Shown piece by piece: positions 1,370 to 19,612 of a stretch of DNA of 25,473 nt. The stretch lies in IMG/VR virus record IMGVR_UViG_3300030101_003549, positions 1-25,473 of that record; one strand, written 5' to 3'. Made by a program: the position numbers and the translations under genes. The notes beneath the pieces were generated by a model that ran no database searches, was not told the DNA's origin, and was given only the letters and a program-made list of their open reading frames with translations. The DNA is from a virus. Positions within the stretch are counted from its first letter, which is position 1, and each line of letters starts with the position of its first letter.

Positions 1370-1906
1370 TTAATCAAATTCCCTTTTTCCTGTATCAGGC
1401 ACCCAACCCTTAGAAAATTCCTCTTGACTCCCTTTTTCAGTCATAGGACGGTAATCATATAACCTATCTACTTCCTCTTGTTCCATGCCTAGAATGTTTA
1501 TGAGTTCTTCATCTGTGTAATTATGTTTATCTTTCATTTTACGGACAATATCAGTCATAGGAATTATTCCATGATTACCACGTGCTCTATTATGAATGAT
1601 TGTTGCAGCAATTTGTTGTGCTTCATCAACTGCATCTTCTAAAAAAACCACAGGCACAAAACCATCTGTTAATTCAGCAATATCTGAATCAGCAGATACA
1701 GTCCACCTATGAAAACCATCTACTATTTCAAATGACTTACGAATAACAATTGGTTGTGTCCACCCACAAAGTTTGATTGATGTTTTTAAAAGTTCTAATT
1801 CAGTTGGTGCAACCCTATTAGGATTGTAGTCATTTGCCTTTAGCTTTGATCTTTTAACCCATTGCATTTGATTTATAGGTTGATTGTCTTTACCTTTTTT
1901 TACCAT
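1370..1906 (-). CDS. ParB/IbrB-like protein
   Basis: A 178-residue protein of the ParB N-terminal (sulfiredoxin-like) fold. Visible signatures are the N-terminal NPNRV segment, IVDGFHRW (equivalent of the ParB GEHRxR box) and HNRARGNHG, the last typical of the IbrB group. A C-terminal helix-turn-helix-like region contains LGMEQEEVDRLY. I start it at base 1906 because a strong ribosome binding site (TGAGGAGGAAAG) precedes that ATG; longer readings run deep into the upstream gene. It overlaps the end of the PP-loop gene by 17 bases, so the two are translationally coupled. IbrA/IbrB-type pairs (PAPS-reductase-like plus ParB-like) recur in phages and genomic islands; a role in nucleic-acid modification or regulation has been suggested, but the function is not established. 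Confidence 0.8.
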   Translation of the reverse strand: MVKKGKDNQPINQMQWVKRSKLKANDYNPNRVAPTELELLKTSIKLCGWTQPIVIRKSFEIVDGFHRWTVSADSDIAELTDGFVPVVFLEDAVDEAQQIAATIIHNRARGNHGIIPMTDIVRKMKDKHNYTDEELINILGMEQEEVDRLYDYRPMTEKGSQEEFSKGWVPDTGKREFD

Positions 1907-3104
1907 ATCTTTCCTCCTCATATGCTTTTTTACTTTGTAAATACTTTTCATTATCTGCTGTAAAGTTCGGAATCTTTCTGCCTTTGAAATCTCCACGCAT
2001 TGCAATACGAAGAAGAAACTTCCAACCAATACCACTTTCATGGTGGTGTGTTGACAATATTGGATCAGATGTTTTTTTATTATGTACACGTATAAAATCG
2101 TTTATAACTTTTGCTATTTTTGATTTATGTGGTTCAGGGTGTTTGTCTAAAAAATATTGGATAAATTCAGGCCATGATGTATCTTTTGGTTTATCTGGTA
2201 ATCCACCAAAAGCATAAAGTTCTGTATTGGCGTATCTTGCTGCAGTTGCACTTCCTGGCACTCTGCTTTGCATTTTATCCCACAAATCTGGGAAAGCTAT
2301 TGAATATTGCCAAAGACCACGCATTGGCTCTTCACCATATGGAGGTGCACATCTTTGCTGTAAGTGAGTCAGCCCTAGCTTTTCTAATATGTCATAGGTA
2401 ATGTTGTAATCCCAACCAAACTTTTGTGGTGCAGTCCAAACATCTACTGTCTTCATATCATAGATGGGGCAAACCTTAACAACATTTGCTAATGCAGTTT
2501 TTGATTTTAGGTTTATCATATAATCTTCATACCTTTTGCCACTTGTTTGTAGTATTGTTCTGTACCTCATTAAACTTTCTTCTGATCTTATTCCCATAAT
2601 TACACCAACCTCACCCCACTCCTGTGGTGTAAATAACAGACCATTACATTCTGGAACTGATGGTCTTTCTTCTTTTTTTCTTGGAAATATTGGAAAATCA
2701 TCAAGACCAAGCACAGATTCATGTGTTGGATATGGTCTTGTCCACTTGTCTTGATCTTCTGGTGCCCAAGGATACCAGAATGGGTGATTGCGACTACATC
2801 CATTTCTGTGTTTTACTGGTAAACACAACCAGTTCATTTTTACTTCTGGAAGGTCTGCAACTCTTGTTACATAATCAATTGTTTCATATGGGATTGCTTC
2901 TTCATCAAAGAAATAAACATGCAAAGGTAATTTGTTTCTTTCCTTTGCTACTTGTAAAGCTAAGTTAAGACATACAGTTGAATCTTTTCCACCACTAAAC
3001 ATAACAACAACATTATCAAAAATGTCATACGTTCTATTAATTCTTTCTATTGCTAAAGTATAGACATCTTTGTCTATATCCTTTTTTTTGAATACTTGGC
3101 TCAT
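1890..3104 (-). CDS. PP-loop ATP pyrophosphatase, PAPS-reductase-like (IbrA/DUF3440-like)
   Basis: The 404-residue protein has the PP-loop SGGKDS at residues 37-42, the AMP-forming ATP site shared by PAPS reductases, thiouridylases and DndC. Downstream are Trp-, Pro- and Cys-rich stretches (NGCSRNHPFWYPW, QRCAPPYGEEP) and GIRSEESLMR, like the GxRxxES motif of the PAPS-reductase superfamily. Length and these features fit the IbrA/DUF3440 branch better than assimilatory CysH, which is shorter and ends in a catalytic ECGxH motif not seen here. A likely chemistry is adenylation, or sulfur/nucleotide transfer, to an unknown substrate. The ribosome binding site AGAGGA precedes ATG 3104 and overlaps repeated element A, which could mask it. 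The partner is the overlapping ParB-like gene downstream. Confidence 0.83.
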   Translation of the reverse strand: MSQVFKKKDIDKDVYTLAIERINRTYDIFDNVVVMFSGGKDSTVCLNLALQVAKERNKLPLHVYFFDEEAIPYETIDYVTRVADLPEVKMNWLCLPVKHRNGCSRNHPFWYPWAPEDQDKWTRPYPTHESVLGLDDFPIFPRKKEERPSVPECNGLLFTPQEWGEVGVIMGIRSEESLMRYRTILQTSGKRYEDYMINLKSKTALANVVKVCPIYDMKTVDVWTAPQKFGWDYNITYDILEKLGLTHLQQRCAPPYGEEPMRGLWQYSIAFPDLWDKMQSRVPGSATAARYANTELYAFGGLPDKPKDTSWPEFIQYFLDKHPEPHKSKIAKVINDFIRVHNKKTSDPILSTHHHESGIGWKFLLRIAMRGDFKGRKIPNFTADNEKYLQSKKAYEEERYGKKR

Positions 3105-9924: not shown

Positions 9925-9961
9925 TTGCAATTGTAAACAAGTTTGCTATTATAAACATATG
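9925..9961 (+). promoter_or_regulatory. Extended -10 promoter with leaderless-type start, copy 1
   Basis: TTGCAA (9925-9930), a 16-bp spacer ending in TGC, and TATTAT (9947-9952). Six bases later comes ATG (9959), in frame with the Shine-Dalgarno-preceded ATG at 9983. The block from GTTTG through TATTATAAACATATG to ATTTTGAAAA is repeated with one change at 15842-15873, also upstream of a small gene. Confidence 0.68.
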
Positions 9962-9982
9962 AATTTTGAAAAAGGAGAAAAA

Positions 9983-12099: not shown

Positions 12100-12576
12100 T
12101 TATATATGATGCCACTCCTTCCCCTCAAATAACAATGCCTCAGCATCACGTCTTCGTATAAGACCTTCTAATACTTTACCACCTGCTTTATTCCAACGTT
12201 TTAACTGGTGTGGAACTTCTTCATATACACCATTATTCAACACTTTAAGAAGCGTTGATGATGCAAGAGCGTTGCCTCCTACATTGAATGTCCAACAAAC
12301 AAGAGCATCAAATTGATTTTGTTCAAGAGGAACATCAACATAATTTGATACATATTTTTCGTATGTTTTTAATTCATGTTTGAGTAATTCTTCTGCCTCT
12401 TGCATTGTTATAGACATATTGTCTTTTACAGGTGAACCATTTTTTAGTTTTAAAGAACCGTAACCAATAGTTTTTTTGTTAGCTGCACACCTATAACTAA
12501 CTGCATTTCCATCTTCATCAATAGGACAACCTTCAAATTTTTTGATAAGAGCTATGCCCTCTTGCGATATATTCAT
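12100..12576 (-). CDS. Endolysin, GH24 lysozyme
   Basis: A 158-residue T4/P22-type lysozyme that cuts the glycan strands of peptidoglycan. The catalytic residues are visible: E15 in KKFEGC, C30 in YRCAANKK (Cys instead of Asp, as in many phage members) and T36 in KTIGYGS. The spacing between E15 and C30 is 14 residues, longer than the usual eight, because of an acidic insertion (PIDEDGN). It has no signal or SAR anchor, so it needs a holin to cross the membrane. I start at ATG 12576, one base after the SNase stop and behind a GGGGG run; a longer frame would read through SNase. The C-terminal LIRRRDAEALLF block is typical. Confidence 0.93.
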   Translation of the reverse strand: MNISQEGIALIKKFEGCPIDEDGNAVSYRCAANKKTIGYGSLKLKNGSPVKDNMSITMQEAEELLKHELKTYEKYVSNYVDVPLEQNQFDALVCWTFNVGGNALASSTLLKVLNNGVYEEVPHQLKRWNKAGGKVLEGLIRRRDAEALLFEGKEWHHI

Positions 12577-13169: not shown

Positions 13170-13553
13170 TTATTCTTCTTCTGACGAATTTTTATCATCA
13201 TCATATTCTCTATAGAACTCTATTATTGAAAGTGTATCTCTTATATACCTTTTAACTTCTGCCATGTTCATTGATAGGTTTTCATAATCTTTAGATGTTA
13301 AAGAATAATAAGCAGTTTCAGGTGCAGAGCCATTGTCAATCTGATTGAGATATTCTTGCATTAGTTCTGGAGTCAATATTTCCCAATCAATATCCACAAG
13401 TTGAACTTCCATCGGAAGTGGAGGATGATACATTGGCATCGGCTCTGCGATTGTTACAACTTCAACAGGTTTACTTTGTATTAAGGGGAACGAAGTGCAT
13501 CCTGTTAGAGCTATAACAAAAAAACTATGAATTATTGTCTTCATCTGTTTCAT
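13170..13553 (-). CDS. Outer-membrane lipoprotein, probable o-spanin (Rz1-like)
   Basis: A 127-residue lipoprotein. The N-terminus MKQMKTIIHSFFVIALTGC is a lipoprotein signal with lipobox ALTGC; ATG 13544 (MKTII) is an alternative start. After cleavage, the Pro-rich segment EPMPMYHPPLPMEV follows, as in many o-spanins, then WEILTPELMQEYLNQ. It overlaps the end of the i-spanin-like gene in a different frame, the classical Rz/Rz1 arrangement. The pair should bridge inner and outer membranes and disrupt the outer membrane at the end of lysis. At this length it is bigger than lambda Rz1, so it may have an added domain. Context supports spanin strongly; sequence alone is moderate. Confidence 0.75.
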   Translation of the reverse strand: MKQMKTIIHSFFVIALTGCTSFPLIQSKPVEVVTIAEPMPMYHPPLPMEVQLVDIDWEILTPELMQEYLNQIDNGSAPETAYYSLTSKDYENLSMNMAEVKRYIRDTLSIIEFYREYDDDKNSSEEE

Positions 13554-13935
13554 CAAATTGATTGGGGTTTGTAAGTGCAATAAGTTCGTCTTTGACTTTC
13601 TTAGTTCCTTTGTTGACTATGTTTTCTATAAGTTTAGGTTTGGCAAGTGCAAGATTATCAAGATTATGTTTTGCAAAAGTGTTCTTTAGTTTATTGACCT
13701 CTCTTTGTGCTTCTTGATTTTTTGCTGTAAGTGTATTTATTTGTTCTTGGGTTTTTTGTTGCTTTTCTAAATTTTGTTTTATCTTGGCGTTTTGCTCTGC
13801 TATTTGTGTTTGTAAGATTTGAGCATTAGCTTTGAGTGTGGATATGTTGTCTTGAAGTCGGTCTATATACCAAGCTGAACCTGCTATGCTTGAAAACAAT
13901 AATCCACCTAGAATTAGATTGAGCTTGAGTCCCAT
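13525..13935 (-). CDS. Inner-membrane spanin (Rz-like i-spanin)
   Basis: A 136-residue protein with one N-terminal membrane helix (LNLILGGLLFSSIAGSAWYI, about 5-24) and then a long periplasmic coiled coil (QDNISTLKANAQILQTQIAEQ onward to about residue 90) rich in Gln, Lys and Asn. This is the standard Rz architecture. The end overlaps the lipoprotein gene, as in Rz/Rz1 pairs. The start overlaps the adenylate cyclase stop by 22 bases, so the cyclase and spanins are translationally coupled, which ties the signalling genes to lysis. Sequence conservation in spanins is low; the call rests on topology, coiled coil and gene order. Confidence 0.8.
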   Translation of the reverse strand: MGLKLNLILGGLLFSSIAGSAWYIDRLQDNISTLKANAQILQTQIAEQNAKIKQNLEKQQKTQEQINTLTAKNQEAQREVNKLKNTFAKHNLDNLALAKPKLIENIVNKGTKKVKDELIALTNPNQFDETDEDNNS

Positions 13936-15692
13936 GTATACACCTGTAATTTTTCTTTTTTACCTTTTGCCTTTATCGGTTTTAAAGGTATTAAATCAAA
14001 TTCTATAGCATTTTCAGTTGTTTGACCAATGAGAAGATCAACACCTGCATCTTTTGTCCCACTTTCAAGCCTTGCTGCAACGTTAACTGCATCACCAATT
14101 GCTGTGTAGTCAAACCGTTGTTCTGAACCCATATTGCCTACAATCGCATATCCTGTATTTATGCCTATTCCTATTTGCACAGGAGCAATGTCTTTGGATT
14201 GTAGTTCTTTATTAAGTTCTTTCATTCCGTTTTGAATGTCTATTGCACATGCAAGTGCTTTTGTTTCATGATGTCTTAAATCAAGAGGTGCATTGAATAT
14301 GGCCATCATTGCATCGCCAATATACTTATCAACCATTCCACCATTAGACTGAACTGCATTTTGTTGTACTGTGAGTGCTTTGTTCATAATATATGTTACT
14401 TTTTCAGGTTCTAAAGTTTCTGATAAAGAAGTAAAACCACGCACATCAGTGAACAAAAAGGTGCAGTATCTTTTTTCACCACCAAGTTTTAAAACTTCAG
14501 GGTTTTGTTGCAATCTTTTTACTTGTCTTGGGTCTAAGTAATGTTCAAATTGTTTCTTGATTTGTTGACGTAGTTTGTATTGTTCTCTAAATCTAAGATA
14601 AAAAGCTAAAGCACTTGTAATAAATTGTGAGATTAGTGTCCAAGTAACATCAACTAAATAACCTTTGTAAATAAGGGTATATCCACCAGATGCCACAGAA
14701 ACCATCAATAAAACACCTATACCTAAACCCCAAGTGACACCAAAAGAAGTCAATACAAGCCATGAGAGAGCTACAAAAAGCACAAATATAGCTACTTCAA
14801 GACCATAACTCCAATCTGGAACACTTGGAGAGTTTGGTATTAAAATTGATTCTGCAAGAGCAGTTTGTATCTTATGTGGTTCTAATAATCCAACTGGTGT
14901 TGCAATTTGTGGCATTATGCCTGTTGCAGTGAAACCAACAAAAACATATCGCCCTTTTACATCCATTTCTTCCAATGTAGTTTCTTTTGTATTTACCCAA
15001 GATATCCATTTCCTGCCCAAAGAATCAGTTTTTACTGGTGCAAGACCTTGTACAGTTATTTCTTCTATACCCAGATCATTTGTTTTTACAATATATGTAG
15101 TGTTACCTGCTAAGACCTTCATAACTTCTGTACCAAATGCAGATACAAAACCATCAGGTGTTCTAAGAAGCAAAGGTATTCTTCTTACAAGATTATCTAC
15201 TTCTGTTGGTGCAATTGCTATGCCTTGATTTGAACAGTTTTTTAAAATGTCTATATTTTGAACAACCCCTGTAGAATCAATCCCACCAACATTATTATTG
15301 CCTATGATTACAGTTCCAGATGTTTCTGGATAAACACCTTTCCCATCTTCATACATTGCTATGACACTTCCACCGTAGCAAAGAGCATTTGCAAAATCTT
15401 GATCGCCACCAAATCTATCTTCTTGTGGAAAAGCAAGAACCCAACCTACACCAAGAGCACCTTTTTGCAAAAGTTCAATATGGATTTCTGCAAGTCTTTG
15501 TCTAGATAAAGGATAACCACCCTCATTTTCTATATCTTGTTCTGTAATGTTAAGAATTGTAAAAAAACCAGATTCTTCATATTTGTGCACTAAACCGTCA
15601 AATGTTCTAAGTTTTATTACTTCTGTAAAGGTTGTTTGTAATAGTAATGGAGTGATTAATATTGGAAGTATTATGAATATTAATTTTTTCAT
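13914..15692 (-). CDS. CHASE2-domain membrane adenylate cyclase (class III)
   Basis: A 592-residue sensor enzyme. Residues 1-20 form an N-terminal membrane helix, about 25-290 a periplasmic CHASE2-type sensor, and about 296-368 three membrane helices. The class III cyclase domain runs from about 405 to 585. The active site is complete: metal ligands D416 (FTDVRGF) and D460 (YIGDAM), adenine-selecting K456 and T530, and transition-state residues N537 and R541 in GDAVNVAARLE. The K/T pair points to ATP, so it should make cAMP in the host cytoplasm in response to a periplasmic signal. In bacteria CHASE2 cyclases often neighbour FecR proteins, as here. A cyclase in a phage lysis cluster is unusual. 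No Shine-Dalgarno sequence is obvious at ATG 15692; the stop overlaps the i-spanin start. Confidence 0.93.
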   Translation of the reverse strand: MKKLIFIILPILITPLLLQTTFTEVIKLRTFDGLVHKYEESGFFTILNITEQDIENEGGYPLSRQRLAEIHIELLQKGALGVGWVLAFPQEDRFGGDQDFANALCYGGSVIAMYEDGKGVYPETSGTVIIGNNNVGGIDSTGVVQNIDILKNCSNQGIAIAPTEVDNLVRRIPLLLRTPDGFVSAFGTEVMKVLAGNTTYIVKTNDLGIEEITVQGLAPVKTDSLGRKWISWVNTKETTLEEMDVKGRYVFVGFTATGIMPQIATPVGLLEPHKIQTALAESILIPNSPSVPDWSYGLEVAIFVLFVALSWLVLTSFGVTWGLGIGVLLMVSVASGGYTLIYKGYLVDVTWTLISQFITSALAFYLRFREQYKLRQQIKKQFEHYLDPRQVKRLQQNPEVLKLGGEKRYCTFLFTDVRGFTSLSETLEPEKVTYIMNKALTVQQNAVQSNGGMVDKYIGDAMMAIFNAPLDLRHHETKALACAIDIQNGMKELNKELQSKDIAPVQIGIGINTGYAIVGNMGSEQRFDYTAIGDAVNVAARLESGTKDAGVDLLIGQTTENAIEFDLIPLKPIKAKGKKEKLQVYTWDSSSI

Positions 15693-15887
15693 GTTATATT
15701 TGCGTCAATCTTTATTAAAGATTTTTTCATTTATTTTGGGTGGTGTCAAAGTTCAAAACCTCAAAAATGTAGCACCACCCACCTCCAAAACCAGATAAAA
15801 AAGTTGTTTTTTTTTACATATAGACCTTGTATTTTTCTGTGTGTTTGTTATTATAAACATATGAATTTTGAAAATAACGAGGTAAAA
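15693..15887. promoter_or_regulatory. Divergent intergenic region with 9-bp inverted repeat
   Basis: This 195-bp gap separates the leftward cyclase from the rightward small gene. TGGGTGGTG (15737-15745) and CACCACCCA (15773-15781) form a perfect inverted repeat around 27 bases, with no T run on either side, so it looks like an operator or leader hairpin rather than a terminator. TTGACA is present on the minus strand (15749-15744) but no convincing -10 follows. The plus-strand promoter at 15827-15854 is clear. Confidence 0.5.
15827..15863 (+). promoter_or_regulatory. Extended -10 promoter with leaderless-type start, copy 2
   Basis: TTGTAT (15827-15832), 16-bp spacer ending TGT, TATTAT (15849-15854), then six bases to an in-frame ATG (15861). 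Spacer, -10, distance to ATG and the following ATGAATTTTGAAAA match the promoter at 9925-9961. The Shine-Dalgarno-preceded ATG is at 15888. Confidence 0.68.
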
Positions 15888-16181
15888 ATGAAAAAAGTAG
15901 AACAACTTAATATTAATAACTTTGAATGGACTGATGTATTGTTAATTCAAATGAAAGACAATAGATTTAGAGAAGTCATTGTTATAGACATTGATGACGA
16001 TATGTTTAGTTTTGATCTAGATACTACAGGCAATACAGGTGATGTTACTTTACAAGACATACATACTGGTGAAATCTTTGGTGCAAACCATGTAAAAGAT
16101 TTTTGGAATGATGATGTAAATGTTGCTTTTATGATTAGAAATACATTCTTAAATAGAATGCACGATACAGTAAGAGTATAA
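15888..16181 (+). CDS. Small acidic hypothetical protein, moron-like insertion
   Basis: A 97-residue protein starting at ATG 15888 after CGAGG; an in-frame leaderless-type ATG at 15861 would add nine residues (MNFENNEVK). It is acidic and looks beta-rich in the middle (VLLIQMKDNRFREVIVIDIDDDMFSFDLD), ending with a helical segment (NVAFMIRNTFLNRMHD). It is unrecognised. It is the only plus-strand gene within the leftward late block, and has its own promoter and a terminator (16203-16226), the signature of a phage moron. Its promoter-leader matches that of the small gene at 9983, so both are likely expressed at the same time. Confidence 0.75.
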   Translation: MKKVEQLNINNFEWTDVLLIQMKDNRFREVIVIDIDDDMFSFDLDTTGNTGDVTLQDIHTGEIFGANHVKDFWNDDVNVAFMIRNTFLNRMHDTVRV

Positions 16182-16202
16182 ATTACAAACTAAATACAAA
16201 TA

Positions 16203-16226
16203 GGGTGTAGCAATACACCCTTTTTT
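16203..16226 (+). terminator. Intrinsic terminator of the plus-strand small gene
   Basis: GGGTGT (16203-16208), loop AGCAAT, ACACCC (16215-16220), then six T residues. It overlaps the last codon of the convergent FecR gene and may slow leftward transcription as well. Confidence 0.82.
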
Positions 16227-17379
16227 AATTCTCTTGCCTTATTCTTATAACACTACTACTTCCACCATTTATTTTTATAGTTCTTGAAACTCCATCTTGG
16301 ATTAAGATTACTGTATAACTATCATCAGAATTAATATCAACCCTAGCAGTATTATTCACACTTCTTATAATCGTTAATTTTTCGCCTGTTATAAATGTAG
16401 TGATCTGTGTATCAAGGTCTTGACCAAAAGTTGTTCCAGACAATTGAACAGAACCAACATCTGCTTGTAGTTGATCTTCTTCTTCTTGGATTTCTAATTC
16501 ATCAAGAATATCTAACAAATCCTCAAGAAAATTTACATCCAGATAATTAATATCAAGTTCAGTGAATTCCAGATCAGACTCATTATCAAGCAAATCTTCT
16601 TCAAGGTAATCAACATCAAGATCATTAAAATCAAGAATTGAATTGCCTTTGCTTGAGTAAACAGTTTCTTCTTCTACAATCTTTTCTTCTGGTGGTGAAA
16701 CAATGAGAATGTTATCAATCAAATCCAAAGATAAATCAAGAATAACTGGTTTACTTGGTGCACTTTCAAAAACAGATACAGTGGTTGCTTGAAACGGTTT
16801 ATTGAGTATGACACTTCCTGTTGCTGTTATAACTTCTATTTCTCCACTTGATAAACCAAGAGAATCAGGCAAAAGAATTATTAAAGATTCACCAAGTTCG
16901 TTGACGGTTGCTGTAAAATCCGTTCCCCTGATTAGGATGTTTGCAGTTGGTGTTTTAAGAGTTACGTTTTTTTTATTTAATTTATCTACATTGCCAGAAA
17001 TAAATCTGGTCGTGCCAAGAGCAAAGGTAAGAGCCATTTTAGACTTTGAAGGATTTGGGTCATAAATATATTCATTAATTAATAATTGACTATGTTCAGT
17101 GAGTTTAACAATAGAATCGTCAAGAAACGTAATAGCCATACGACCATTAGATGTTATGGCTTCATCATTGCTTTGTATATCAAAATCTACAAAAGCATTT
17201 AAGGGTTCTTCCCTTATTATCTGTGCATTGCCTCTTAGTTCAGAAACATCTCCAATACTAACATCCTGTGCTTGTACCCTGATCGTTTTGATTGATACAA
17301 ATAGAAGAATTAGAAGTATTCGTGATAAGTTTAAGATAATCTCTTGCAAGTGTAGATGATTGTGTAATGTCAATATCAT
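16225..17379 (-). CDS. FecR-domain periplasmic protein with acidic LD-rich tail
   Basis: A 384-residue exported protein. Residues 1 to about 38 form a signal peptide with an unusually long N-region (hydrophobic LSRILLILLFVSI, cleavage near VQAQ). The FecR domain is visible in GDVSELRGNAQI, the SNGRMAITFLDDSIVKLTEHSQLLI strand set and TFALGTTRFISG through TPTANILIRGTDF. Beyond it lies an acidic repeat region (about 240-300) built on LD/DL units (FNDLDVDYLEEDLL, LDINYLDVNFLED), then a beta-rich end. FecR domains in bacteria act as periplasmic partners in signalling, often beside CHASE2 cyclases. The start ATG 17379 follows GGAAG by 6 bases and overlaps the curlin-like gene by 122 bases. The stop lies in a terminator stem. 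Confidence 0.85.
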   Translation of the reverse strand: MILTLHNHLHLQEIILNLSRILLILLFVSIKTIRVQAQDVSIGDVSELRGNAQIIREEPLNAFVDFDIQSNDEAITSNGRMAITFLDDSIVKLTEHSQLLINEYIYDPNPSKSKMALTFALGTTRFISGNVDKLNKKNVTLKTPTANILIRGTDFTATVNELGESLIILLPDSLGLSSGEIEVITATGSVILNKPFQATTVSVFESAPSKPVILDLSLDLIDNILIVSPPEEKIVEEETVYSSKGNSILDFNDLDVDYLEEDLLDNESDLEFTELDINYLDVNFLEDLLDILDELEIQEEEDQLQADVGSVQLSGTTFGQDLDTQITTFITGEKLTIIRSVNNTARVDINSDDSYTVILIQDGVSRTIKINGGSSSVIRIRQEN

Positions 17380-17983
17380 TTGAACTTCCGTCTAAATCTA
17401 AGTAGAAATATCCAGAATCAGCAGATGTTGTTCCTGAATAACCACTAGCTGTAAAATCTATCTCATTTGAGCTTCCATTTATATCAAGATAATTGATTGC
17501 ATTTTCATAATCAATATCAAAATTTAAAATGTTGCTATCTCCCAGAATTATCCAATCCAGATCAAGATAAGAAGAATCAGCACTCTCACCAATTTCTAGA
17601 TCAAACTCATTGCTTGAACCTGTAACATCAATATTCAGGTTAACGTAATCAGCACTTATTAATCCTGTGCTGTTCATCAGAATATCCATAATATTTGAAT
17701 CACCATCAAACTCAAAAAATCCAGTAAAGTTATCTCCATCAATTCCATCTGATCTAAAGACATTTGAACTTCCTATTTGGTTTATATCAAGCGTCATTGA
17801 AACACCGTCTAGGTCTAAAGCAGTCATTGTTCCTGAAACAGCAGAAGTTCCACCAATCAAGTTGGAAGAACCAAGTTGTTCAAGATCAACACTTGCTGAA
17901 TTACCAGATTGATCAACATATATTTCATTATCAGCAAAAACTGACAATGATAAAAATAAAATTAAATTTAATAATTTATTCAT
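17258..17983 (-). CDS. Curlin-like secreted repeat protein
   Basis: A 241-residue protein with a clear signal peptide (MNKLLNLILFLSLSVFA). The mature part has about seven imperfect repeats built on GSSN or GDSN followed by alternating hydrophobic and acidic residues, for example VDLEQLGSSNLI, LDINQIGSSNVF, IDVTGSSNEFDLEIG, LDINGSSNEIDF, LDLDGSSNDIDI. This is the strand-turn-strand pattern of curlin (QxGxxN) repeats, but much more acidic and with few Gln. It should be the export substrate of CsgG/CsgF encoded just upstream, giving a fibre or surface layer. A tail with two Cys (SICINQNDQGTSTGC) is odd for a curlin. CsgA or CsgB equivalence cannot be decided. It overlaps csgG by 8 bases and fecR by 122. 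Confidence 0.75.
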   Translation of the reverse strand: MNKLLNLILFLSLSVFADNEIYVDQSGNSASVDLEQLGSSNLIGGTSAVSGTMTALDLDGVSMTLDINQIGSSNVFRSDGIDGDNFTGFFEFDGDSNIMDILMNSTGLISADYVNLNIDVTGSSNEFDLEIGESADSSYLDLDWIILGDSNILNFDIDYENAINYLDINGSSNEIDFTASGYSGTTSADSGYFYLDLDGSSNDIDITQSSTLARDYLKLITNTSNSSICINQNDQGTSTGC

Positions 17984-18788
17984 ATTTCCAGTACCCTCTT
18001 TCGTAACCTATATTAATAAGTTCTAAAACTGCACCTTCTATTGCTTTCATTAATGCAAGAGTAGTGCTTTCATTTGAAGCAGAACCAATTTCTACTTCTA
18101 CAAGTTCAGTACCCATCTCTATGAATTTAAAAACGTCTGTTGACTGACCATAACTGTAAATTGTTTTTTGTGACATAACTTCAATGAGTATCTCACCTGT
18201 TGCAACTGAAACCATACGCAAACTTACAGTTACGGAATCTTCTCTATACTGCATACTTGAGCCGATTCCAAGATATCTTGCACCAACTCCACCAGTTGCC
18301 AAGTTACTATCATACGACACAACTGCACCTTCTAGCAACACACCTGCAAAAAGCAAAGGTGAAAGCACGTTATTATCATCTAATTGTTCTCTAGTTGATC
18401 TTATGAGTTGTCTCTCCTTTGTAAGGTTATCTAATCCAATTCTTTCAACCACACGAAAAAAATTGCCCCCTGATGCATGTTTCAAAGACCTTAATAATAT
18501 TGTATATGGTGCTTGTGTTATTGCAGATGAAAAAAGAGCAAACTCACTGTTACTTTTTCTTTGGCCTGTTTGATCTGTAAATGCAGTTGGGTAAACTGCA
18601 ACTACTGGTTTTACTATAGGTGCTTGAACATAAAGAAGTTGTTTTGACTGAAGATCAAAAATAGAGTATTTATTTAGTCCTTTGCTTTCAAACCTTTCAG
18701 GTCGTGTATCTTTGACTATATCAAAGACTGCACAACTAGAAAGAGAAATCACCAAGAGGCAATTCAATAACAGTCGTAGTTCCATCAT
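17976..18788 (-). CDS. csgG: Curli secretion channel CsgG
   Basis: A 270-residue outer-membrane lipoprotein of normal CsgG length (277 in E. coli). The signal ends with lipobox LSSC (C19). The match is clear from end to end: VYPTAFTDQTGQRK, FSSAITQAPYTILLRSL, NFFRVVERIGLDNLTKERQLIRS, then YDSNLATGGVGARYLGIG, the transmembrane-hairpin region VTVSLRMVSVATGEIL, and ASNESTTLALMKAIEGAV with a final RGYWKYE. CsgG forms a nonameric outer-membrane pore that exports curlins. Around the pore constriction, Phe is kept (FSSAITQ) but the preceding Asn is Leu. It overlaps csgF by 53 bases and the curlin-like gene by 8. The second Met (18785) is an equally good start. Confidence 0.94.
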   Translation of the reverse strand: MMELRLLLNCLLVISLSSCAVFDIVKDTRPERFESKGLNKYSIFDLQSKQLLYVQAPIVKPVVAVYPTAFTDQTGQRKSNSEFALFSSAITQAPYTILLRSLKHASGGNFFRVVERIGLDNLTKERQLIRSTREQLDDNNVLSPLLFAGVLLEGAVVSYDSNLATGGVGARYLGIGSSMQYREDSVTVSLRMVSVATGEILIEVMSQKTIYSYGQSTDVFKFIEMGTELVEVEIGSASNESTTLALMKAIEGAVLELINIGYERGYWKYE

Positions 18789-19281
18789 TTGAGTTAAAAA
18801 TTGTGAGTATTATCATACCATCAACAATCTCATAAGAAATTATATTGCCTTCTAATTCAAATGAACCTTCTGTTGACTGTGTCTCCCCAAACATGTTTTC
18901 AACAATCTGCCTTGATATCTGTGCATAAATACGACTCTCTAGGTTTCTAATGAACCTCGCTAAAGTTGTGTTTTCTGCATCTCTTTCAAGTTCATCTTGT
19001 AATGCTTTTATTTCTTCCTTGATTGTCATTTTTCGCATGTGTTCTTGGTTTTCAATCGTCAAGTAATGCGAACTTGTATTGACACCTGAAAAAGATGGAG
19101 ACTTAAATTTAAAGGTGATTTGATCTGCTTGTAGATTAACAGTAAGAATACCAATAAAAAGAAACACAGCAATGATACCCATTGCTATTGCAATACCTCT
19201 TTTTTCAATATTTTCCTGTGCAATCTTCAATTCTTTCTTGCTTGGTCTTCCTCTTTTTTTCTTAGTCTTTTCTTTGGTCAT
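18736..19281 (-). CDS. csgF: Curli assembly factor CsgF with N-terminal extension
   Basis: A 181-residue protein; E. coli CsgF has 138. The mature start DQITFKFKSPSFSG fits the CsgF peptide that inserts in the CsgG pore, and the end (LARFIRNLESRIYAQISRQIVENMFG, then NIISYEIVDGMIILTIFNSNDGTTTVIEL) matches the CsgF helix and beta domain. The N-terminus is odd: about 28 charged residues (KTKKKRGRPSKKELK) precede the hydrophobic IAIAMGIIAVFLFIGILTV. RGRP is the core of an AT hook. An internal ATG (MGIIAV) would give a shorter signal peptide but lacks positive charges. The Asn/Gly-rich linker of E. coli CsgF is replaced by a charged helix (about 80-105). The start overlaps the holin-like gene by 20 bases. 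Confidence 0.88.
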   Translation of the reverse strand: MTKEKTKKKRGRPSKKELKIAQENIEKRGIAIAMGIIAVFLFIGILTVNLQADQITFKFKSPSFSGVNTSSHYLTIENQEHMRKMTIKEEIKALQDELERDAENTTLARFIRNLESRIYAQISRQIVENMFGETQSTEGSFELEGNIISYEIVDGMIILTIFNSNDGTTTVIELPLGDFSF

Positions 19282-19612
19282 CTCTATCTGCCTTTGCTAT
19301 CTTGTTGCTATCAATAAGCTGTGGCACTCCTAAAATAGTTTTTATTAACGTATCTTGTCTAATGATTTCATTATCTAAGCTACGCACCCTATCTATCAAT
19401 GCTACTAAAATACCATGTTGGGAATCAAGTTTTGTGCCTAACCTTTCTTCCATCGCTGAAATAGATGTATTGACTTTATCATCAACAGTATCAAGTTTTG
19501 TCTCCATACCATCAATAATTCTGTTTATTAGCTTCCACACAAAAAGTCCTAGACCAAGTGCTGCAGCTATTGGAAAACCTAACTCGGTAATTAAAGCAAC
19601 TGCTGATTCCAT
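19262..19612 (-). CDS. Holin-like membrane protein with coiled coil
   Basis: A 116-residue protein with one N-terminal membrane helix (LGFPIAAALGLGLFVWKLI, about 11-29) followed by a long amphipathic coiled coil (ETKLDTVDDKVNTSISAMEERL onward). This layout fits hemolysin XhlA/BhlA-type proteins and several phage holin-like accessories. It lies just after the tail genes and just before csgF, and is the best holin candidate for the endolysin, together with the small protein at 12966-13130. The end overlaps csgF by 20 bases. No close family can be named from sequence alone. It starts 3 bases after the stop of the preceding small gene, with no strong ribosome binding site, so coupling is likely. 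Confidence 0.68.
   Translation of the reverse strand: MESAVALITELGFPIAAALGLGLFVWKLINRIIDGMETKLDTVDDKVNTSISAMEERLGTKLDSQHGILVALIDRVRSLDNEIIRQDTLIKTILGVPQLIDSNKIAKADRDDQRKD

Follow-up and report, generated by a model that had tools for sequence, protein, structure and literature searches.

What an envelope-sensing adenylate cyclase does in a phage genome, directly beside the lysis genes, is the question raised by this locus. The window analysed here is a complete linear IMG/VR virus record of 25,473 bases from a marine phage, and its late region encodes, on the minus strand, a CHASE2 class III adenylate cyclase of 592 residues (13914..15692). A first-pass annotation had described an intact phage-borne membrane cyclase with an envelope sensor, adjoining lysis genes, and proposed that it raises host cAMP to retune host metabolism or to time lysis; its observation is confirmed and its interpretation partly supported. 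The cyclase belongs to an already published kind, as the last part of a phage-borne curli gene set: adenylate cyclases within pelagiphage curli (type VIII secretion system, T8SS) clusters were described in 2022 (Wittmers et al., PMC9599517).

The cyclase as a phage gene

An N-terminal transmembrane segment (residues 2-18) precedes CHASE2 (about 25-300), which is followed by three transmembrane or linker helices (295-385) and the cyclase domain (403-592). Both CHASE2 (PF05226, residues 15-307, E = 4.8e-23) and Guanylate_cyc (residues 409-585, E = 4.3e-20) lie above the Pfam cut-offs, and the top-scoring phage family, PHROG 35576, matches the protein from end to end. In the AlphaFold2 model (mean pLDDT 86.5), a single N-terminal membrane helix leads into a periplasmic CHASE2 domain (about 44-290) and thence through helices 295-316, 318-342 and 350-385 into the cyclase domain; the predicted topology is thus that of a CHASE2 sensor, with transmembrane segments on either side of the periplasmic domain. 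The modelled cyclase domain has the class III fold, its matches being Spirulina CyaC and P. aeruginosa CyaB (Foldseek, E = 1e-17 to 4e-16, TMt 0.83-0.88).

The active site is intact at the sequence level and of the ATP-specific type, comprising two metal-binding aspartates (Asp416 and Asp460), the base-selecting pair (Lys456 and Thr530) and the transition-state residues Asn537 and Arg541. Among 82 relatives, Asp416, Lys456, Asp460 and Arg541 are invariant and Asn537 is present in 81, while position 530 is occupied by Thr in 63, Ser in 18 and Asp in one, so that the Lys/Thr pair named earlier holds, with Thr or Ser in 81 of the 82. Asp416, Lys456, Asp460, Asn537 and Arg541 likewise agree in 80 T4-like and 47 CsgG-recruited loci, apart from one truncated sequence. 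The dN/dS ratio against four relatives is 0.10-0.21 and therefore indicates purifying selection. The phage cyclase is genuine and probably active, and is predicted to produce cAMP. The cyclase of phage Melnitz (L083, 8917-10968) is an exception, with Ser at position 537 and changed residues at 528 and 530; it may be impaired, and that phage has a different host (OM43).

Membrane cyclases had been thought rare in phages, a view that did not survive the survey: two scans of viral contigs returned at least 589 and at least 585 matches, placing relatives on at least 585 IMG/VR contigs. A second contig (L316) shares the arrangement at 95-97% DNA identity, as do many divergent contigs; with hundreds of viral contigs and this near-identical one, an assembly error or a captured host gene can be dismissed. 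A scan of genome contigs for a cellular source gave three matches only, all within phage-like stretches of contigs from metagenome-assembled genomes (MAGs), and cyclase matches labelled as Acinetobacter phage are flanked by host housekeeping genes in the record and are not comparable. A supported branch (98/93) separates all phage sequences from the cellular ones in a tree of 20 phage and 28 cellular cyclases, which fits one acquisition and later dissemination from phage to phage. The same history has been argued for the curli module (PMC9599517).

Curli genes and spanins around the cyclase

Five genes lie upstream of the cyclase on the same strand, in the order 116-aa protein, CsgF, CsgG, curlin and FecR. 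The first product (19262..19612) combines an N-terminal hydrophobic segment with a coiled-coil-like tail and has only weak, holin-like PHROG matches; a histidine kinase is placed at this position in PMC9599517, and no kinase domain was found in the 116-aa protein. It is followed by the curli assembly factor CsgF (18736..19281; PF10614, 7.8e-18) and by CsgG, the curli outer-membrane secretion pore (17976..18788; PF03783, 3.5e-47; NCBIfam CsgG, 5.1e-48). The next protein (17258..17983, 241 aa) has a signal peptide and a predicted regular beta-repeat (AlphaFold2, pLDDT 83.7). Its assignment as a curlin-like fibre subunit is tentative and weaker than the other calls in the set: Curlin_rpt is detected in 12 of the 39 family members (best E = 2.5e-8) and matches the window member at 0.01, and a fold search of the model against the PDB gave nothing significant. 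The last gene before the cyclase (16225..17379) encodes a FecR-domain protein of 384 aa (PF04773, 1.8e-8; PHROG 37870, 7.7e-68) with an N-terminal hydrophobic, signal-peptide-like segment; it is predicted from hydropathy to be periplasmic and is the proposed input partner of CHASE2.

Conservation of this set was assessed with HMMs built from viral loci. The loci were recruited by similarity to the query, and the linkage counts hold for relatives of this clade, not for all phage cyclases: all five upstream genes occur in 43/43 window-type loci with at least 4.5 kb of upstream sequence, and a survey that started from CsgG found FecR and the cyclase downstream in 47/47 phage loci with at least 5 kb available. 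The FecR stop and cyclase start overlap or lie within 20 bases of each other in 53 of 79 window-type loci. In the T4-like relatives, the curli genes and FecR are retained (24/25), while Rz is almost absent (nearby in 2/69); therefore, the link of the cyclase to curli is general and that to spanins is lineage-specific. Curli clusters are widespread in marine phages. FecR and the cyclase are the constant parts of the cluster among the relatives and, with cellular genomes suggesting that the two are a sensor pair, they offer a concrete test of what such clusters do.

The lysis genes lie downstream, also on the minus strand. They encode an Rz-like inner-membrane spanin (13525..13935; PHROG 739, 1.7e-13), an overlapping Rz1-like outer-membrane lipoprotein spanin with the lipobox ALTGC (13170..13580; PHROG 812, 8.4e-17) and a phage lysozyme, the endolysin (12100..12576; PF00959, 1.1e-41). 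Both the spanin identities and the overlap noticed earlier hold, the Rz start overlapping the cyclase stop by exactly 22 bases (13914-13935). In a lysis-linked role, the cyclase would respond to a change in the envelope by raising cAMP and, together with the spanins to which it is coupled, would time or tune lysis. Rz indeed lies within 300 bases downstream of the cyclase in 45 of the 47 window-type loci with a recognised Rz, and overlaps it in 24; nevertheless, Rz is recognised in only 41 of the 74 loci with enough downstream sequence, T4-like phages keep the cyclase and curli genes with no lysozyme neighbour and almost never Rz, and genes in phage operons commonly overlap by a few bases. A role in lysis is thus quite unlikely. 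Among the relatives, adjacency to spanins proved confined to window-type phages, and FecR and the curli genes, not the lysis genes, are the constant partners. Most likely, cyclase and spanins adjoin because they share a late transcript and a place of insertion, not because the cyclase times lysis.

Between FecR and the cyclase, the window carries an opposite-strand cargo cassette (15790..16221, plus strand) consisting of a promoter-like repeat of 32 nt (15843-15874), a small ORF reading to 16181 and a terminator hairpin (16202-16221). The site is empty in three relatives (L002, L003 and L308) and differently occupied in two (L316 and L008). Since the cassette and its terminator split the FecR-cyclase junction, the window cyclase may be transcribed with the spanins rather than with FecR, apart from the curli genes. 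A stable leader hairpin precedes the cyclase (15735..15785, minus strand) and is kept in the nearest relatives L002 and L003 (z = -3.0, -2.1 and -2.2); Rfam identified no RNA family in the window, this hairpin included. The 32-nt repeat has a second copy, 97% identical, at 9941-9972; both copies stand upstream of plus-strand genes and look like a phage promoter. Elsewhere in the window, an amidoligase and gamma-glutamyl cyclotransferase pair (3-1266) is conserved in two related records (G122 and G141). It is followed by a ParB-domain protein adjoining a PAPS-reductase/DUF3440 protein (1370-3104), a pair resembling IbrB/IbrA; another ParB protein and a cupin protein lie close to it.

The probable FecR-CHASE2 pair and the possible target of cAMP

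CHASE2 is present in 138 of 289 alphaproteobacterial genomes. When the best CHASE2 gene of each of 30 such genomes was inspected by hand, a FecR domain was found within 5 kb in 12 of them, against 0.32 expected under random placement. In two cases (L147 and L148) a CHASE2-cyclase has FecR as its immediate upstream neighbour, and no CsgG was found near the CHASE2 and FecR genes in the genomes tested. One SAR11-family genome has a chromosomal set (L146, 2034-6001) in which a CHASE2-SpoIIE phosphatase is followed by another gene and then FecR, and in a Burkholderia biofilm operon a FecR-domain protein adjoins a CHASE2-histidine kinase (PMC5192318). As phosphatase, kinase and cyclase outputs all stand beside FecR, its constant partner is the sensor, not the output. 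Because FecR occurs near CHASE2 far above chance in Alphaproteobacteria, the two probably constitute a borrowed bacterial envelope-sensing pair; judging by gene neighbourhood, they may be in direct contact. The window genes scanned with Pfam include neither the paired sigma factor nor the TonB receptor of an E. coli-type FecR anti-sigma regulator. S. meliloti CyaD1 lacking CHASE2 produces cAMP constitutively (PMC5498481), pointing to a restraining action of CHASE2 on the enzyme.

It is reasonably probable that the cyclase is the output of the phage curli module (116-aa transmembrane/coiled-coil protein, CsgF, CsgG, curlin, FecR and CHASE2 adenylate cyclase), with FecR and CHASE2 as its envelope input. 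Late in infection, the phage would equip its host with a CsgG/CsgF pore and with curlin fibres. Once secreted, the FecR-domain protein, the borrowed partner of CHASE2, would report the state of the envelope (e.g., curlin or pore status, or a change at the surface), and CHASE2 would then hold the cyclase down or release it. The cytoplasmic domains would, as a homodimer, convert ATP to cAMP. In SAR11-type hosts, a CRP regulon is an unlikely reader of this cAMP.

The genomes of one host family bear on this last step. The MAG holding one relative (L085) bears the label Candidatus Pelagibacter and falls in Pelagibacteraceae, and 83 of the 118 genomes of that family contain the sequence of the 16S probe SAR11-542R; the family is therefore SAR11. 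A search for class III cyclases found no chromosomal one among the 118 genomes. In the two genomes with a class III cyclase, its gene shares a contig with the phage curli module; these (L085 in G001:C1 and L142 in G037:C11) are phage contigs binned into SAR11 MAGs, which falsely suggest a SAR11 cyclase. Nine of the 118 genomes encode cNMP-binding domains; a single protein is CRP-sized, and its N-terminal cysteine cluster makes it look FNR-like, so that no CRP-type cAMP receptor was found in the 118. Another cNMP-binding protein that was tested is a fusion with acyltransferase and lipase domains.

Reprogramming of the host through its cAMP-CRP regulon, as the retuning idea implied, would suit an enzyme apparently able to make cAMP, and in S. 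meliloti CHASE2 cyclases act together with Clr, a regulator of the CRP family (PMC5498481). The host of the window phage could also possess CRP. The terminase of a relative (G141) is at most about 50% identical to that of any cultured phage, and host assignment through its terminase and tail genes found no close cultured phage. Against this stand the SAR11 genomes, the host of HTVC008M being Pelagibacter HTCC1062 according to its record, and the 27 related phage records, mostly fragmentary, in which no cNMP-binding protein was found. Since the SAR11-family genomes showed no chromosomal class III cyclase and no CRP receptor, yet SAR11 phages carry the enzyme, this route is doubtful in the only host family that could be tested; for the window phage itself it may still apply, but overall it is an unlikely explanation. 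Yet another reading, a Pycsar-like system in which a cyclic nucleotide made upon envelope disturbance serves superinfection exclusion or counter-defence, is very improbable. PADLOC models for PycC do match the cyclase domain (E = 3.7e-29), as expected from the shared class III fold; however, the ATP-type pair (Lys456 and Thr or Ser530) is retained in all relatives but one, no pyrimidine-type substitution was found, and the neighbours scanned include no TIR or transmembrane effector of the Pycsar type, the linkage being to curli genes.

On a speculative reading of rather low probability, phages of SAR11-type cells would bring a full FecR-CHASE2-cyclase line from envelope to cAMP into hosts with neither class III cyclase nor CRP, and the cAMP would act on a non-CRP target or serve the phage alone, coupling the state of its own fibres to infection. 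The locus thereby raises the question of what cAMP means in cells seemingly devoid of its usual receptor.

Comparison with known systems

The pelagiphage T8SS cluster (PMC9599517) shares CsgF, CsgG, curlin, FecR and adenylate cyclase with the window, in identical order; CHASE2 is not named there, and FecR is read as an iron-dependent regulator. The window module differs in adjoining lysis genes and in the cargo cassette that splits FecR from the cyclase, and its phage lineage in having exonuclease/Erf-like recombination genes and, in the relative G141, a different terminase. HTVC008M (AGE60353.1) and Melnitz (QZI94833.1), whose records carry the cyclase annotation, encode full-length CHASE2-cyclases that end the curli cluster (34.7% and 31.8% identity); both phages are T4-like and, unlike the window phage, lack a spanin neighbour.

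Alphaproteobacterial CHASE2 adenylate cyclases, including S. meliloti CyaD1 (PMC5498481), have the same combination of CHASE2, membrane helices and class III cyclase, and many of them have a FecR neighbour; these are cellular enzymes and, unlike that of the window, do not lie near CsgG in the genomes tested. The Burkholderia BiofilmReg operon (PMC5192318), which controls biofilm, resembles the window in its periplasmic FecR-domain protein and CHASE2 sensor, but its output is a histidine kinase, whereas that of the phage module is a cyclase.
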